Shown one piece after another: positions 801-55,532 of a stretch of DNA of 64,000 bases. Location: NCBI RefSeq assembly GCF_003934165.1, contig NZ_ML133510.1:30810-94809 (forward strand), written 5' to 3'. Both the position numbers and the translations under genes were made by a program. The stretch comes from Borborobacter arsenicus (lineage in GTDB: Bacteria > Pseudomonadota > Alphaproteobacteria > Rhizobiales > Rhizobiaceae). Every line of letters begins with the position of its first letter. Position 1 is the stretch's first letter. The notes beneath the pieces are model-generated. The model saw nothing but the letters and a program-made list of their open reading frames with translations. It searched no databases and was not told the DNA's origin.

Positions 801-1504
801 TGAATATCCAGGATGCGGCCTCCAACTATGTGATCAAACCGCCCGCGATCGCCGCGCTGCCGGTTGCCGGTTCGGACCGGCAGTTTCCGGTCCACCGGGT
901 CTATTGCGTCGGCCGCAACTATGCCGCGCATGCGGTGGAGATGGGACACGACCCCGACAAGGAACCGCCCTTCTTCTTCCAGAAGAATCCCGACAATCTC
1001 GATACCAGCGGACAGTTCCCCTATCCGCCGGCCTCCAATGATGTGCATCATGAGATCGAGATGCTGGTGGCGCTGAAAGGCGGCGGCAGGGACATCCCGT
1101 TGGAGAAAGCGCTCGACTGCGTCTACGGCTATGGCGTTGCCCTCGACATGACAAGGCGCGACCTGCAGGGCAAGGCCAAGGAGATGGGCCGGCCGTGGGA
1201 AGTGGGCAAGGCCTTCGAGGCATCCGCGCCCTGCGGTGCGCTGGTGCCGGCCGAAAAGATCGGCCATCCGAACCAGGGTGCCGTCTGGCTCGACGTCAAT
1301 GGCGAACGCAAGCAGACCGGCGATCTCAACCAGATGATCTGGAAGGTGCCGGAGATGATCAGCTATCTGTCCGGCCTGTTCACGCTGATGCCGGGCGATG
1401 TCATCCTGTCGGGAACGCCTTCAGGCGTCGGCGCGGTCAATCGCGGCGACGTGCTGCGCGGCCATGTCGAAGGGATCGGCGAGATCGAGGTCCGTGTTGT
1501 CTGA
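800..1504 (+). CDS. fumarylacetoacetate hydrolase (FAH) family protein, fumarylpyruvate hydrolase-like
   Basis: A 234-residue cytoplasmic enzyme of the FAH superfamily, which cleaves C-C bonds in fumarylacetoacetate-like or fumarylpyruvate-like diketo acids. The family core is present: VYCVGRNYAAH at 34-44, metal-binding E85 and E87 in HHEIE, D116 in ALDMTRRD, K137 in WEVGKAFE and SGTPSGVG at 204-211. The short length and the PPFFFQKNPDNL segment at 56-67 fit the NagK/YcgM-like short branch better than full-length FAH. The ATG at 800 overlaps the permease stop by one base. The same frame stays open upstream to base 11, but that is antisense-free shadow over the permease and encodes nothing recognisable. 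The true substrate is unknown; fumarylpyruvate, maleylpyruvate or oxaloacetate chemistry are all possible. Confidence 0.88.
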   Translation: MNIQDAASNYVIKPPAIAALPVAGSDRQFPVHRVYCVGRNYAAHAVEMGHDPDKEPPFFFQKNPDNLDTSGQFPYPPASNDVHHEIEMLVALKGGGRDIPLEKALDCVYGYGVALDMTRRDLQGKAKEMGRPWEVGKAFEASAPCGALVPAEKIGHPNQGAVWLDVNGERKQTGDLNQMIWKVPEMISYLSGLFTLMPGDVILSGTPSGVGAVNRGDVLRGHVEGIGEIEVRVV

Positions 1505-3014
1505 GCAGGGATCGATCATCGAGCGGCTGGTGCGCGGACAGCACGACGCCCCCGCGATTCTTGCGCCGGAACGAAGCGCGCTGACGCATGGCGGCCTGCG
1601 CCGATTGATGGCGGATGCTGCCGGCCAGTTGCATGCGCGCGGGATAGGGCGGGGCGATCGCGTCGCCATCGTGCTGCCCAACGGGCCGGAAATGGCGACG
1701 GCTTTCCTGAGCGTTGCCGCCGCCGCCACCACCGCGCCGCTCAACCCCGCCTATCGTGCCGAGGAACTCGACTTCTACCTGACCGATATCGGCGCCAAGG
1801 CGATCCTTGTCGCGGAAGACGAAACCGGCCCGGCCGTCAGCGTTGCCGAGCGGCTCGGGATCGGCGTGCTGCGGCTGGTGGCGCTGCATGACGCGCCGGC
1901 GGGCAGCTTCCGGATAGAAAGCGAGGCGGGGGTGCCGGCGGCATCCGATCTGGCGCAGGTGGAGGATGCAGCGCTTTTGCTGCACACATCGGGCACCACA
2001 TCGCGGCCCAAGCTGGTGCCGCTGCGCCACGCCAATCTGGCGGCGTCGGCCGCCCATATCGGCGCGACGCTGAAGCTTGGCGAGGCGGATCGCTGCCTCA
2101 ACATCATGCCGCTTTTCCATATTCACGGGCTGGTCGCGGCGGTGCTGTCCTCGCTTGCCGCCGGCGCCAGCGTGTTCTGCACGCCGGGCTTCAATGCACT
2201 GAAATTCTTCCAATGGCTGAGCGAGGCGCGGCCGAGCTGGTACACGGCGGTGCCGACCATGCACCAGGCGATACTGGCAAGGGCGGCGCGCAATGGCGAA
2301 ACGGTGACGGAAGCGCAATTGCGCTTCATCCGCTCCTCATCCGCCTCGTTGCCGGCGCAGGTGATGGCGGAACTGGAGGCGACCTTCCGCTGCCCGGTGA
2401 TCGAGGCCTACGGCATGACCGAGGCGGCGCACCAGATGGCTTCGAACCAGTTGCCGCCGGGCAAGCGCAAGCCGGGCAGCGTCGGCCCGGCAGCCGGACC
2501 GGAGATTGCCGTGATGGCGGCGGACGGACGGCTGCTCGGACCGGGCGAGACCGGCGAGGTGGTGATCCGCGGCCCCAACGTCACCGCCGGCTACGAGAAA
2601 AACCCCGATGCCAATCTTGCCGCCTTCGCCCATGGCTGGTTTCATACCGGCGACCAGGGCGTGCTCGATGACGACCGCTATCTGCGCGTAACCGGCCGGC
2701 TCAAGGAGATCATCAATCGCGGCGGCGAGAAAATCTCGCCTCTGGAAGTGGACGAGGTGCTGATGGATCATCCCGCTGTCGCACAAGTGGTCACCTTCGC
2801 TATGCCGCATGACAAGCTTGGCGAGGAGGTGGCGGCGGCGATCGTGCTGCGCGAAGGCAGCGTGGCCGGCGAAAGCGAAATCCGCGATTTCGCTTCCGGC
2901 CGTCTCGCCGATTTCAAGGTGCCGCGCCGTATCGTGATCCTCGAGGAAATCCCGAAAGGCGCTACCGGCAAGCTGCAGCGGATCGGCCTTGCGGCCAAGC
3001 TCGGGCTTGGCTGA
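1497..3014 (+). CDS. acyl-CoA synthetase (AMP-forming), oxalate-CoA ligase (AAE3/Pcs60)-like
   Basis: A 505-residue member of the ANL adenylate-forming superfamily that would activate a carboxylic acid to its CoA thioester via an acyl-adenylate. The ATP loop HTSGTTSRPK is at 163-172. It is followed by an LPLFH-like motif (MPLFHIHGL), WYTAVPTMHQ, RFIRSSSASL and EAYGMTEAAHQM; the catalytic lysine is K492 in PKGATGKLQR. The TTSRPK loop, FHIHGL and WYTAVPT combination is how plant AAE3 and yeast Pcs60 oxalyl-CoA synthetases read, so oxalate or another short diacid is a reasonable candidate substrate (inference). The start is ambiguous: TTG 1497 sits six bases after GAGG (1487-1490), while GTG 1494 is only three away. 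Either way it overlaps the FAH stop, implying coupling. Confidence 0.88.
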   Translation: MSEQGSIIERLVRGQHDAPAILAPERSALTHGGLRRLMADAAGQLHARGIGRGDRVAIVLPNGPEMATAFLSVAAAATTAPLNPAYRAEELDFYLTDIGAKAILVAEDETGPAVSVAERLGIGVLRLVALHDAPAGSFRIESEAGVPAASDLAQVEDAALLLHTSGTTSRPKLVPLRHANLAASAAHIGATLKLGEADRCLNIMPLFHIHGLVAAVLSSLAAGASVFCTPGFNALKFFQWLSEARPSWYTAVPTMHQAILARAARNGETVTEAQLRFIRSSSASLPAQVMAELEATFRCPVIEAYGMTEAAHQMASNQLPPGKRKPGSVGPAAGPEIAVMAADGRLLGPGETGEVVIRGPNVTAGYEKNPDANLAAFAHGWFHTGDQGVLDDDRYLRVTGRLKEIINRGGEKISPLEVDEVLMDHPAVAQVVTFAMPHDKLGEEVAAAIVLREGSVAGESEIRDFASGRLADFKVPRRIVILEEIPKGATGKLQRIGLAAKLGLG

Positions 3015-4012
3015 TGCGTATAGCAGTATTCGGTGCGGGGGCGATCGGCGGCTATCTGGCGGCAAAGCTTGCCGGTGCCGGCCGGGTCGAGCTGTCGATC
3101 GTGGCGCGTGGCGCACATCTTGAAGCCATCCGCAAGGATGGGCTGCGGCTCATCGAGGATGGGCAGGAGAGCGCTCATCCGGTGAGGGCTGCAGCCGACG
3201 CAGGCGAATTGGGCGTGCAGGACTATGTCGTGCTGGCGCTGAAGGCGCATTCGCTAGGGCGCGCGCTTGACCAGATCACGCCGCTGCTCGGGGCCCAGAC
3301 TGCCGTGGTGACCATGCAGAACGGCGTGCCCTGGTGGTATTTCTACAAGTCCGGCGAGGCATTGGAGGGGACCCGGATCGCCGCCGTCGATCCGGATGGA
3401 GCGATCTGGGATCGGCTCGACCCCGAGCGGGTGATCGGATCGGTGGTCTATCCGGCGGTCGAGGTCGATGCGCCGGGCTTGATCCGCCATGTCGATGGCA
3501 GGCGCTTTTCGCTGGGCGAGCCATCCGGCGACAAGAGCGAAAGGGTCAGGCTTTTGGCCGAGGAACTGATCGCGGCCGGGCTGCAGGCGCCGGTGCGCGA
3601 CGACATACGCGCCGAGATATGGGTCAAGCTCTGGGGCAATCTCTGCTTCAATCCGATCTCGGCGCTGACCGGCAGCACGCTGGAGGCCATCGTCGCCGAC
3701 GAGGCAACACGAACGCTGGCGCGCAACATGATGTTGGAGGCGCAGGCGATCGGCGAGAAACTCGGCGTGCGCTTTCCGGTCGATGTCGATCGGCGCATCA
3801 GGGGTGCCGGCGCGGTCGGTGCCCACAAGACCTCGATGCTGCAGGACCTGGAGCGGGGGCGGCCGATGGAAGTCGATGCGCTGGTGACGGCGGTGCAGGA
3901 GCTTGGCCGTCTTGCCGGGCAGGAGACGCCGACCATCGATGCGGTGCTGGCGCTGGTGCGCCGCTTAGCAATCGAGCGTGGCTGCTATCCGGGGCAGGCG
4001 TCCGCAAATTGA
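3014..4012 (+). CDS. ketopantoate reductase family oxidoreductase (PanE/ApbA-like)
   Basis: A 332-residue NADP-binding enzyme with an N-terminal Rossmann motif GAGAIGGYLAAKL at residues 7-19 and the C-terminal ApbA helical domain. The segment EIWVKLWGNLCFNPISALT carries the conserved lysine and asparagine of ketopantoate reductases. The ATG overlaps the ligase TGA by one base, so it is the last gene of the operon. In a catabolic operon of this composition, a role in reducing a 2-oxo acid is more likely than pantothenate synthesis; many PanE-like paralogues are not pantothenate enzymes. The specific substrate is not deducible. It ends about 75 bases before the small transcription unit at 4088. 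Confidence 0.87.
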   Translation: MRIAVFGAGAIGGYLAAKLAGAGRVELSIVARGAHLEAIRKDGLRLIEDGQESAHPVRAAADAGELGVQDYVVLALKAHSLGRALDQITPLLGAQTAVVTMQNGVPWWYFYKSGEALEGTRIAAVDPDGAIWDRLDPERVIGSVVYPAVEVDAPGLIRHVDGRRFSLGEPSGDKSERVRLLAEELIAAGLQAPVRDDIRAEIWVKLWGNLCFNPISALTGSTLEAIVADEATRTLARNMMLEAQAIGEKLGVRFPVDVDRRIRGAGAVGAHKTSMLQDLERGRPMEVDALVTAVQELGRLAGQETPTIDAVLALVRRLAIERGCYPGQASAN

Positions 4013-4040
4013 GATCGGCCCTTGCATGTGCCGCCGCAAC

Positions 4041-4055
4041 CCTCCACATTGGAGG
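4041..4055 (+). promoter_or_regulatory. leader hairpin CCTCCA/TGGAGG upstream of the small ORF
   Basis: CCTCCA (4041-4046) and TGGAGG (4050-4055) form a six-base-pair stem with a three-base loop. The CCTCC at 4041-4045 could instead pair with the GGAGG of the ribosome-binding site at 4076-4080. The two pairings are mutually exclusive, so this leader could open or close the ribosome-binding site. The pairings are read directly from the sequence; the switching role is inference. No clear -35/-10 pair was found to say where the transcript starts. Confidence 0.45.
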
Positions 4056-4071
4056 CCGTGTTCAACCAATC

Positions 4072-4086
4072 GAAAGGAGGTGATCC
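4072..4086 (+). promoter_or_regulatory. 15-base perfect anti-16S (extended Shine-Dalgarno) sequence
   Basis: GAAAGGAGGTGATCC is the exact reverse complement of GGATCACCTCCTTTC, the 3' end of 16S rRNA in Rhizobiales. Typical Shine-Dalgarno matches here are four to six bases, so this is extreme. The GGAGG core is seven bases before the ATG at 4088, an ideal spacing. It could give very strong initiation, hold 30S subunits on the leader, or act as a ribosome-titrating RNA; the sequence alone does not decide. Confidence 0.8.
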
Positions 4087-4087
4087 G

Positions 4088-4159
4088 ATGTCGAGTGATT
4101 TCGTTTTCCAGAGCGTGGGCTCCGCGGATTGCCTTTTGGGGGAGCAGCCTCTCCTGTGA
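4088..4159 (+). CDS. small ORF, 23 codons, unknown function
   Basis: An ATG placed ideally behind the extended Shine-Dalgarno sequence opens a 23-codon frame ending in TGA at 4157-4159. The peptide begins MSSDFVFQSVGSADCLL and ends in GEQPLL, with no membrane segment or known domain. It is too short for ordinary gene calling. Support comes from the perfect ribosome-binding site, the leader hairpin and the dedicated terminator 70 bases downstream; nothing else in the segment explains those signals. Whether the peptide or the act of translation matters is unknown. I do not recognise a named family. Confidence 0.55.
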   Translation: MSSDFVFQSVGSADCLLGEQPLL

Positions 4160-4176
4160 AGGCATGATGCGCGGGA

Positions 4177-4192
4177 AGTGACCTAGCAGTCA
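4177..4192 (+). promoter_or_regulatory. hairpin GTGAC/GTCAC after the small ORF
   Basis: GTGAC and GTCAC flank a six-base spacer just downstream of the small ORF. Further on, GGCCGC at 4201-4206 can pair with GCGGCC at 4249-4254, the right arm of the terminator. An alternative fold that disrupts termination is therefore possible. This is a structural reading only; no ligand or regulator is implied. Confidence 0.35.
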
Positions 4193-4228
4193 CTGATAAC
4201 GGCCGCGCACTGGACGAAAGCCACGGAA

Positions 4229-4258
4229 GGCCGCTGTTTTCATGAACAGCGGCCTTTT
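4229..4258 (+). terminator. rho-independent terminator of the small transcription unit
   Basis: A ten-base-pair perfect stem, GGCCGCTGTT (4229-4238) with AACAGCGGCC (4245-4254), has a six-base loop and is followed by TTTT then GTGTTT. It ends the + strand unit just before the convergent VWA gene, whose stop is at 4281. Confidence 0.85.
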
Positions 4259-4280
4259 GTGTTTCAAGCCGTTGCCTTGA

Positions 4281-5639
4281 TTACCGGGTCAGCGCCAGGC
4301 CTTCGATATTGCTGACGATGGTATCGAAGGCAGCCTTGAGCTGCTCGCCTGTGGCGGCTTCGTAATAATGCTTGAATGAAGACGTGTCCGGCGTGGCGCA
4401 GCTCCTCATCACGTCCTTGGCATCGTCTTCTCGCAGGTCGAAGCCGATGGTGAAGACCTCGATGCCGTCCTTGCGCATGGCTTCGCACAGCGCCTTGGCA
4501 TGCGGCATGGAACGGAGCTTGGCTGCGGTGCCATAGACCTGATCGACATTCGCGGCGTCGGCATAGCCGAGATTGAATTCGCCGTCGGTCATCAGGATGG
4601 CGTATTTGCCGACCTTTTTCGGATCTTTCGCCGCCGGCGCCGCCGCTGCGCCGACGACATCGGCCCACTGGCGGGACAGCATGTACCAGCTCCATTGAAT
4701 GCCGATATGGCCTGCGGTGCCGCCCTCGGCGACAAAGCCTCCGATGGTGTCGGTCAGCCTGGCTGCGTCGGCCGTCAGCGGAACCATCACGGATTTCTGC
4801 GAACAGGTCGGCGTCCTGTATTTTTCCGCATAGGCGCCGAGCAGCAGGTCACGATTGACCATGGAGGCCGACGGACCCTCATTGCTGTAGCGATAGTCGC
4901 CCTTGCGCTCGGTGGCGCAATTGTCGGGGCGTGCGGCGGAGACGAGCTTGGGGTCGTTGCTGGAAGGCGCCTGTGTCCGCTCGCTTTTTTTGGTCTCAAC
5001 GAAAACAGCCTTTTCGGCGACAGCCTTGCCGACATTGACCGAGTTCGCATAGGGCACGAGCGCAACGCGCACGCGCGGATTGTTCGGATCGAGATTCTTT
5101 TCCAGGAGCCTGCCGACGGCGCTGGCGGCGGCGGTCTTCAGGTCCTTGATCTTGTCCCCTGCCATAGATCCGGTGATGTCCAGCATCATCGCCACTTCGA
5201 TCTTGCGGTCCGAATAGAGGGCAGCCGAGTCGATGCTGACACGTGGGTCTTTGTCCGTGAAGATCGGAAAGGCAAGTGCCACATTGGCAGAGGCGGTGGC
5301 GCTCACCGTTCTGGTGAGGGGATCGACATCCAGGGTGTCGAGCACGAAGCCATCCTGCACGGAAAACTTCGAATCGCTGTTGGCACGAAGGAATGCCTCG
5401 ACCACGGTGCGGGCATCTTCCACCTTGATGGCGCCGATGGTGAGGTCGCGCGCGGTCGAGGTGACGGCTGCGTCGAGCGCGTTCTGCAGGCTCGACTTGA
5501 CCTGATAGGACTGCGCGACATTGACGCCGAAGCCGACGGCAAGCATCAGCGCTGACGCACACACTGCGGTCAGAATGGCGAAGTTGCCGCTTTTGTCTGC
5601 TGCAAATCGCGAGATTGCGCGAGTCCCGAAATGCTTCAT
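4281..5639 (-). CDS. TadG-like pilus assembly protein with von Willebrand factor A domain
   Basis: A 452-residue membrane-anchored protein. Residues about 11-65 form the TadE/TadG-type N terminus: a charged SGNF segment, one membrane helix at about 19-42, then LQNALDAAVTSTA. A VWA domain follows, with the metal-site motif D154-I-T-G-S-M. It would be an envelope protein linked to Flp/Tad pilus or adhesion functions, as TadG proteins are. The start was set at ATG 5639, which has GGAG six bases upstream; an in-frame ATG at 5651 is possible and the frame stays open further back without a recognisable protein. No other tad/flp genes are in the window, so this is an orphan copy. Two CtrA-like half-site pairs lie upstream. 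Confidence 0.82.
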   Translation of the reverse strand: MKHFGTRAISRFAADKSGNFAILTAVCASALMLAVGFGVNVAQSYQVKSSLQNALDAAVTSTARDLTIGAIKVEDARTVVEAFLRANSDSKFSVQDGFVLDTLDVDPLTRTVSATASANVALAFPIFTDKDPRVSIDSAALYSDRKIEVAMMLDITGSMAGDKIKDLKTAAASAVGRLLEKNLDPNNPRVRVALVPYANSVNVGKAVAEKAVFVETKKSERTQAPSSNDPKLVSAARPDNCATERKGDYRYSNEGPSASMVNRDLLLGAYAEKYRTPTCSQKSVMVPLTADAARLTDTIGGFVAEGGTAGHIGIQWSWYMLSRQWADVVGAAAAPAAKDPKKVGKYAILMTDGEFNLGYADAANVDQVYGTAAKLRSMPHAKALCEAMRKDGIEVFTIGFDLREDDAKDVMRSCATPDTSSFKHYYEAATGEQLKAAFDTIVSNIEGLALTR

Positions 5640-5780
5640 GCCTGTCTCCATCCGCCTTCGCCCGTGGGCCAACTGACAGCGGTGGTGCAGGAATCCTGCC
5701 GGACTACGGCCTGGCAGGGTGTGAAGGCCCTTGTGTCTCATCAACCTGTTGTTTTCATTGTCCTTTCGTCACAAGCTTGG

Positions 5781-5908: not shown

Positions 5909-6370
5909 TCAGCCGCACCAACCCTGCCGTTTGCCGCCCGAATAGGGACGGACGAATTGCCGGTCGAGCAGGGTCGTGCCGACCGCCTCGCCGGCCTCGG
6001 TTTCGACATCGGCGAGCACACGGCCGTAATATTTGGCGCCGCCTATGTTGGAAATCGAGACGGTGGCCTCACCGATCATGCCCGAAAGCGCTGCCTGCGC
6101 CCGCAAGGCGGCGGCACGTTCGCCGCGGCAGCGGCTCTTCATTTCCGGCGCGTCGATGCCGCGAATGCGGATATTGATCCTGATCGACTGGCCCGGCCAG
6201 ATATGGGCATCGGCCAGGAACGTATCGCCGTCGATGACCTGGACGACGCTGGCCATGACCGGTCCCTTGAAAGGTTTGCGCGACCTGGCTTCGGCGGATG
6301 GAGCGATGACAAGCGCCGCCGCCAAGAGCGTCGCCAGTCCTGTTGCAATACAGACTCCGTTCAACATCAT
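5909..6370 (-). CDS. thermonuclease-family (SNase-like) exported protein
   Basis: A 153-residue protein with an N-terminal hydrophobic signal sequence (about 1-28, ending near SAEARS). A staphylococcal-nuclease-like OB fold follows. VIDGDTF, the IRGIDAPE motif with its catalytic-type arginine, the GERAA glutamate and KYYGRVLADV are present in family order. It would act in the periplasm or outside the cell on nucleic acid, though many rhizobial members have not been assayed. ATG 6370 and ATG 6367 are consecutive, so either may be used. It is a single gene, with the SDHAF4-like gene about 90 bases away on the same strand. Confidence 0.82.
   Translation of the reverse strand: MMLNGVCIATGLATLLAAALVIAPSAEARSRKPFKGPVMASVVQVIDGDTFLADAHIWPGQSIRINIRIRGIDAPEMKSRCRGERAAALRAQAALSGMIGEATVSISNIGGAKYYGRVLADVETEAGEAVGTTLLDRQFVRPYSGGKRQGWCG

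Positions 6371-55456: not shown

Positions 55457-55532
<76 letters not shown>

Follow-up and report, generated by a model that had tools for sequence, protein, structure and literature searches.

A small alphaproteobacterial RNA related to CC2171, with a ribosome-binding site complementary to the 16S rRNA tail and two predicted competing folds

Within the window, a 64,000-nucleotide stretch of the Borborobacter arsenicus genome (contig NZ_ML133510.1), positions 4021–4260 of the plus strand hold a whole small gene, with promoter, ORF, hairpins and terminator, set between panE upstream (3014–4012) and a Tad/VWA gene downstream (4281–5744) that lies on the minus strand and is convergent with the element. 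All features of the element are on the plus strand. Its sequence places a promoter at CTTGCA (4021–4026) and CACATT (4045–4050), separated by an 18-nt spacer; the upstream TTG is conserved, occurring at -48 to -50 from the 15-mer described below in 74 of the 90 loci of the window's order. The leader, GTGTTCAACCAATC (4058–4071), begins where sequence conservation sets in, at about 4058, which is the likely start of the transcript. It is followed by a 15-nt complement of the 3' tail of 16S rRNA, GAAAGGAGGTGATCC (4072–4086), an extended Shine-Dalgarno sequence, and by a 23-codon ORF (4088–4159) for the peptide MSSDFVFQSVGSADCLLGEQPLL, with its ATG (4088–4090) placed 7 bases past GGAGG and its TGA at 4157–4159. 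Pairing comparisons across loci define a long-range helix, P1, between a 5' strand, GTG.ATTTCG..CCAG.GCGTGG (4095–4118), and a 3' strand, CCGCGC..CTGGACGAAA..CAC (4203–4224), at the base of the terminator. Further features are an internal segment like the 16S tail, CGGATTGCC (4125–4133), which is complementary to GGTGATCCG (4079–4087); a hairpin, P2 (4138–4154), with the loop CAGC (4145–4148), identified from a loop survey and an alignment of 21 sequences; and an alternative helix (4169–4208) formed by GCGCGG (4169–4174) and CCGCGC (4203–4208) around the hairpin AGTGAC/GTCACT (4177–4194). An intrinsic terminator, recognised by its fold and with a helix that is 98.6% paired, occupies about 4227–4258.

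The predicted transcript (4058–4262), about 200 nt long (roughly 205 nt), folds at -99.6 kcal/mol with a z-score of -6.1, and none of 200 shuffles was equally stable. Terminators were found at 234 of 252 loci by the final version of our finder (run with no control places), and by two earlier versions at 140 of 205 loci (control places, 48 of 708) and at 130 of 207 (control places, 79 of 683). The element also contains GGAGCAGCC, which may resemble SRP RNA or 23S rRNA. A sequence-only reading of this DNA had described a compact discrete unit in which a 23-codon ORF at good spacing is followed by hairpins and a very strong terminator, and this anatomy holds up. That reading had also let an upstream CCTCC pair either with a local partner or with the ribosome-binding site. 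The motif (4041–4045) sits between the promoter boxes, abutting CACATT and upstream of the likely start; because of the conserved TTG at -48 to -50 and the onset of conservation near 4058, it is probably outside the RNA, whose start site is predicted rather than mapped, and as part of the promoter it was ruled out as a partner of the ribosome-binding site. The broader notion of competing structures survives in that the ribosome-binding site is involved, although the partners differ from those proposed: CGGATTGCC competes for the ribosome-binding site, and CCGCGC (4203–4208) can pair with either GCGTGG (4113–4118) or GCGCGG (4169–4174).

At gathering scores, Rfam returns a single match in the whole window, a tRNA-Ala (CGC; 55457–55532, plus strand) that is also its sole tRNA. 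Below those scores, the element aligned end to end (model positions 1–159) with the model of RF01867, the Caulobacter sRNA CC2171, at 39.3 bits (E 3.3e-7 for 236 bases), short of the gathering score of 75 bits. At E 0.01 or better, the same model found matches in 68 of the 101 family genomes, the window element included, with none above the gathering cut-off; 65 of these genomes have a single match and three have a second one. Among 14 control genomes, Caulobacter vibrioides and Deinobacterium chartae gave matches, one of them above the cut-off, presumably that of Caulobacter. The window element and CC2171 have in common the 5' core CAAUCGAAAGGAGGUGAUCC (the consensus 5' end of RF01867 is cAAcaAucGAAAGGAGGUGAUCCAGUGUCUCAU), a start-like codon followed by UC, and a closing helix immediately before the terminator. 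They differ in the start codon (AUG in the window, GUG in CC2171), in codon 3 (AGU against CAU, compensated on the 3' strand) and in the internal mimic of the 16S tail, and a hairpin with a CARC loop sets the window element apart. Other sub-threshold Rfam matches (RefA9, CC1840, ar35 and others) fell mainly in the terminator region and were taken as chance. Judged by sequence, the window element is a sub-threshold homologue of RF01867 CC2171, which removes the earlier suggestion of an undescribed element belonging to no named family.

An RNA labelled RF01867, MH_s33 of Mesorhizobium huakuii 7653R, was seen by RNA-seq as a transcript of 215 nt (PMC5596092, where a table row is its single mention), similar in length to the roughly 205 nt expected here; neither an ORF nor 16S pairing nor a structure is described for it in the accessible part of that paper. 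The sequence-only reading had proposed looking for a discrete transcript of about 180–230 nt, a range that takes in the length of this RNA, which is linked to ours by its label. RF01867 is listed with one additional covarying pair in the part of PMC11701678 available to us, and two predicted Caulobacter ncRNAs are reported to be translated (PMC4117421), their names being absent from the accessible portion of that source. In the literature searched, which was in part accessible only as excerpts, the RF01867 name and a Caulobacter catalogue entry were already known, with no function attached; we found no experiment on the function of an RF01867-type RNA and, supplementary tables apart, no description of 16S-tail complementarity, an ORF or a mimic in one.

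To place the element among bacteria, we combined three kinds of search. BLAST matched 67 of 121 genomes, the window's own counted, of which 66 hold the element and one (L068) the terminator alone. A degenerate pattern retrieved at least 118 loci, and the 80 pattern matches listed come mainly from Rhizobiales and Sphingomonadales; Hyphomonadaceae, Parvularculaceae, Azospirillum and further groups are represented too. A 42-position sequence-only model, run with filters that drop weak matches, matched 150 of 387 genomes of the class at E 0.01 or better; the 112 of these matches that lie below 1e-3 are candidate elements, and those above 1e-3 were mostly only the stretch antisense to 16S and were excluded as elements. 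In a phylum sample of 397 genomes, 107 matched at 1e-3, 105 inside the class and two outside. One of the two (L272; G871:C34:59803-59832), from the same phylum, is a complete element that has the ORF, the P1 ends and the terminator; the other (G604) was rejected as an ordinary gene start. Elements are also present in two records titled Gammaproteobacteria (L135, L147), a placement taken from the title. The element was not matched in the plasmids and phages searched. BLAST, pattern and model searches all find the element beyond close strains, confinement to which the sequence-only reading had named as a refutation, and by these searches it is widespread in Alphaproteobacteria.

The most conserved part of the element is the 16S complement together with the start. 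In the window's 5.4-Mb draft genome, GAAAGGAGGTGATCC at 4072–4086 is the only site with at most one mismatch. The 16S tail was readable in five of 25 genomes queried (G013, G025, G132, G272 and G475) and is GGATCACCTCCTTTC in each, confirming the perfect 15-base anti-16S match that had been claimed; in the other queried genomes it seems to be masked. The window's own draft genome gave no reverse match, and the tail is therefore missing or masked there. The 15 bases presumably make up the full single-stranded tail beyond helix 45, going by the E. coli 16S structure, and their duplex with 16S is predicted at -26.8 kcal/mol. Across 252 loci, 117 of which were fetched by a pattern holding most of the 15-mer constant and could hardly vary, 195 have the exact 15-mer and 246 have all 15 pairs when G-U and one inserted base are allowed. 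All 15 pairs are kept in 64 of 66 loci found by BLAST and in 24 of 24 found with the Caulobacter model, each of these searches being somewhat biased toward the motif. At positions 1–14 of the 15-mer, 37 changes preserve pairing (A to G, C to T) and three abolish it, counting loci rather than independent events and permitting a single inserted base and a spacer longer or shorter by one; the three losses are confined to two loci. An earlier count that ignored insertions gave 48 changes keeping pairing and 37 losing it, the difference arising because the inserted-base clade and the first position were handled differently. In that clade all 15 complementary bases are present, and the predicted pairing moves from -26.8 to -23.0 kcal/mol. 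The base preceding the start codon is A or G in 249 of 252 loci, and either can pair with the next 16S base, U. These comparisons argue that the 15-mer is selected for pairing with the 16S tail along its full length. An ordinary strong ribosome-binding site, under selection for nothing more than high initiation, could leave a similar record.

Start codons at the 252 loci are ATG (232), GTG (19) and TTG (1), and every locus has TCN as codon 2 (third base T 131, G 111, A 8, C 2), counts that are partly built in because the finder seeks [AGT]TGTC; read without that filter, RTGTC is present in all 66 loci found by BLAST and all 24 found with the Caulobacter model. Of 151 dissimilar representatives, 150 keep frame 0 open; the other two frames are open in 81 and 50, and shuffles give 81.7 ± 6.3. 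By contrast with this constancy of the frame, pN/pS in frame 0, a rough guide because RNA structure constrains codons too, ranges from 0.72 to 1.49 and is below the shifted frames in one of three groups, that with 24–27 codons (0.72–0.80 against 0.89–0.94). Only in that group do the values lean slightly toward the synonymous substitution that the sequence-only reading had proposed to look for, and a functional peptide, for which the other two groups give no support, was rejected as a general account. The peptides start with M-S, mostly followed by S, H or N, and the residues after these differ among clades. Neither Pfam nor NCBIfam gave a match for the 23-aa ORF, and a type I toxin mRNA was set aside by eye, MSSDFVFQSVGSADCLLGEQPLL not being a hydrophobic membrane peptide. 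From the open frame, the pN/pS values and the clade-variable residues, it appears that an open frame is kept rather than a peptide, and we infer that the ORF is translated. ORFs of 56–59 codons occur at six Azospirillaceae-type loci (L102, L133, L142, L202, L255 and L256), with a secreted-protein-like start (for example the signal-peptide-like MSHGAKPVIAVLFGISALLTAGVASA); because of this length and start the peptide may matter there, and Pfam gave no match for the two such ORFs submitted.

P1 connects the sequence from codon 3 on with the base of the terminator stem. Its ends covary among clades: AGTGAG/CTCACG, AATGAG/CTCATG, CATGGT/ACCATG and CATTGT/ACAATG. Among 197 distinct sequences, mean contiguous pairing is 4.80 with the sequence's own partner and 2.71 with a partner from another group, and runs of at least four pairs occur with 69% of own and 24% of other-group partners. 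A first register, in which the first base of codon 3 had to be paired, gave mean runs of 2.46 against 1.88, the weakness being due to an A-G mismatch at that base in the AGTG group. In a duplex swap test, means were -29.0 for own, -21.5 for foreign and -22.1 for shuffled partners; 46 of 137 sequences beat all 30 foreign partners and 33 beat all 60 controls, a result that we graded as moderate. Across 21 sequences from the window's family, 92.3% of the cells of the P1 fold are paired and 18 pairs are changed on both sides (six in P1, seven in P2 and five in the terminator). Together, these comparisons argue for P1 across clades. The P2 loop is CAGC or CAAC (CARC) in 80 of 151 representatives, the next loop word being found in nine; it falls in each of the three reading frames (61, 4 and 15) and at times lies past the stop, which identifies the CARC hairpin as an element at the RNA level.

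The internal segment CGGATTGCC (4125–4133), which pairs with GGTGATCCG, is similar to the 16S tail, GGATCACC. In the same 21 sequences the mimic helix has 98.9% of its cells paired, with one pair changed on both sides, and the mimic fold as a whole has 97.3% paired and 15 double-sided changes (one in the mimic helix, two in the alternative helix, seven in P2 and five in the terminator). Over 500 shuffles, no measure was reached for either fold, save one measure once for the P1 fold. At 83 loci the base ahead of the start codon varies together with the one ahead of GGAT, the combinations being G-C (52), A-T (12), G-T (5), A-C (4) and others (10). Caulobacter-type loci read CTGGAT..TCGCCTC. In the inserted-base clade (L044, L224, L227, L229, L230, L232, L233, L234, L237 and L239), the insertion lies within the ribosome-binding site and a CCTTCC-type segment stands directly after the stop; this segment prefers its own bulged site over the canonical one in nine of ten loci, by 3.8 kcal/mol on average, in a clade that may represent one event. 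The reverse control was weak, the canonical site being better or equal in 122 of 211 canonical loci with a mean difference of 0.57 kcal/mol. With groups assigned by simple sequence rules, the mean z of internal pairing to the site was -2.4 for the window type (26 representatives), -1.8 for the inserted-base type (8), -1.4 for the Caulobacter type (17) and -1.2 for others (67); the sphingomonad-type mimic did no better than shuffles (-0.67, 20 representatives). The comparison supports the mimic well in the window's clade and some others, and not in sphingomonads.

P1 and the mimic helix cross and are therefore mutually exclusive unless a pseudoknot forms. The predicted energy gap between the two folds averages 1.9 kcal/mol over 21 sequences (range -11.5 to +12.7), with P1 the more stable in 17, so that not all sequences are balanced. 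Pairing with 16S brings a predicted net gain of 17 to 23 kcal/mol in these sequences. The predicted 16S duplex ends one base before the ATG and P1 starts seven bases past its A; ordinary initiation would have to melt part of both.

Our preferred reading, to which we give a probability of about 0.5, is that of an RNA that is translated and has two states, with the 30S tail and the internal mimic contending for its ribosome-binding site. The 5' end of the RNA would pair with the entire free 3' tail of 16S rRNA, up to the start codon, and the mimic would rival that tail for the 15-base site, giving an open fold closed by P1 and a shut fold in which the ribosome-binding site is held by the mimic. 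A 30S subunit that wins the site would translate a short ORF of largely irrelevant sequence, and passage of the ribosome would melt P1, the mimic or P2 and so keep the site open. The output would be the state of the RNA, expressed through its stability or through P1 and P2 strands exposed to partners. We infer that the two folds interconvert and that 30S binding drives the switch. The sequence-only reading had offered a ribosome-availability sensor among its interpretations; the anatomy is compatible with one, and the sensing itself belongs to the model. In its fullest form the proposal is of an RNA device, present throughout the class, that would gauge how available free 30S subunits are or what state they are in, its open fold being latched by translation of an arbitrary short ORF; this is distinctly more doubtful than the two-state RNA itself.

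Such a device would be a regulator with the ribosome's own rRNA tail as its ligand, and if the switch model holds, bacteria would possess a direct RNA sensor of ribosome availability or heterogeneity. Even as an ordinary sRNA, RF01867 merits widening and annotation with a probably translated ORF. New here are the evidence for selection on 15-mer pairing, an open frame without a conserved peptide, P1 covariation, the CARC-loop hairpin and the internal mimic.

Among the alternatives, a conventional trans-acting sRNA would pair with target mRNAs through the CARC loop or freed P1 strands, leaving the ribosome-binding site and ORF to serve stability or a second role. This would suit the typing of CC2171 as an sRNA in Rfam and the RNA-level CARC-loop P2 of 80 of 151 representatives. 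However, the loop search found no CARC loop in the other 71, and conservation peaks at the 16S complement and start rather than at the loop; we consider this explanation unlikely.

A second alternative is a sensor of the state of the 30S platform, for example of subunits lacking bS21, in which only those with a free tail would pair fully. According to the available part of PMC9976891, bS21-less ribosomes of Flavobacterium favour the rpsU mRNA, with predicted pairing below -13 kcal/mol, and the -26.8 kcal/mol of the 15-mer duplex exceeds this, although the values come from different programs; in E. coli, bS21 would be an obstacle to an extended helix (PMC13009471, from the portion accessible). 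Yet the locus shows no link to bS21: its neighbours are panE and the Tad/VWA gene and its ORF is not bS21, which makes such a sensor rather improbable. Flavobacterium rpsU is still the best precedent for the regulatory use of an extended site, exceptionally strong 16S-tail pairing being the point of likeness; as far as that source goes, rpsU encodes and autoregulates bS21, whereas the window element would be an autonomous RNA with a non-conserved ORF and a mimic. Pairing past the canonical Shine-Dalgarno toward the start codon is also described for Staphylococcus aureus, with two extra pairs in a solved complex and a predicted occurrence at ~30% of sites (PMC13009471, same portion); in the window it extends over all 15 bases in a single RNA.

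Still somewhat less probable is a sponge that holds 30S subunits or slows global initiation. The predicted gain of 17–23 kcal/mol upon 16S pairing would fit, and a helix ending one base before the ATG should impede P-site placement, but 65 of 68 matched genomes have a single match, and a sponge would have no need of an open reading frame. A small mRNA whose product is a functional peptide and whose ribosome-binding site is unusually strong would explain the conserved open frame and start codon and the signal-peptide-like ORFs of the six Azospirillaceae-type loci; against it stand the pN/pS values, lower than in shifted frames only in the 24–27-codon group, the reading of the same RNA motif in different frames and the lack of a Pfam or NCBIfam match, and we regard it as very improbable. 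The closest parallel known to us for a translated tiny ORF in an alphaproteobacterial small RNA is rnTrpL/peTrpL of Sinorhizobium, which differs, in the part of PMC10117765 available, in being leaderless, derived from trp attenuation and endowed with a functional peptide; translation of the window ORF is predicted. A leader-peptide attenuator, which the sequence-only reading had considered and which the order of short ORF, hairpins and terminator recalls, has next to no likelihood, since the next gene is convergent and lies behind the terminator, a gene of the Tad/VWA family is found downstream, on the minus strand, at 32 of 213 loci, and clades do not share the same largest neighbour families.

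Neighbouring genes at these 213 loci vary from clade to clade in their largest families. A gene of the AMP-binding family is near the element in 47 of them, upstream and on the same strand in 46; the one near L132 is an acetyl-CoA synthetase, and the window's own member lies at 1398–3014, with panE between it and the element. Farther along the window, an ORF at 5909–6370 on the minus strand resembles, by eye, a small secreted thermonuclease-type protein.
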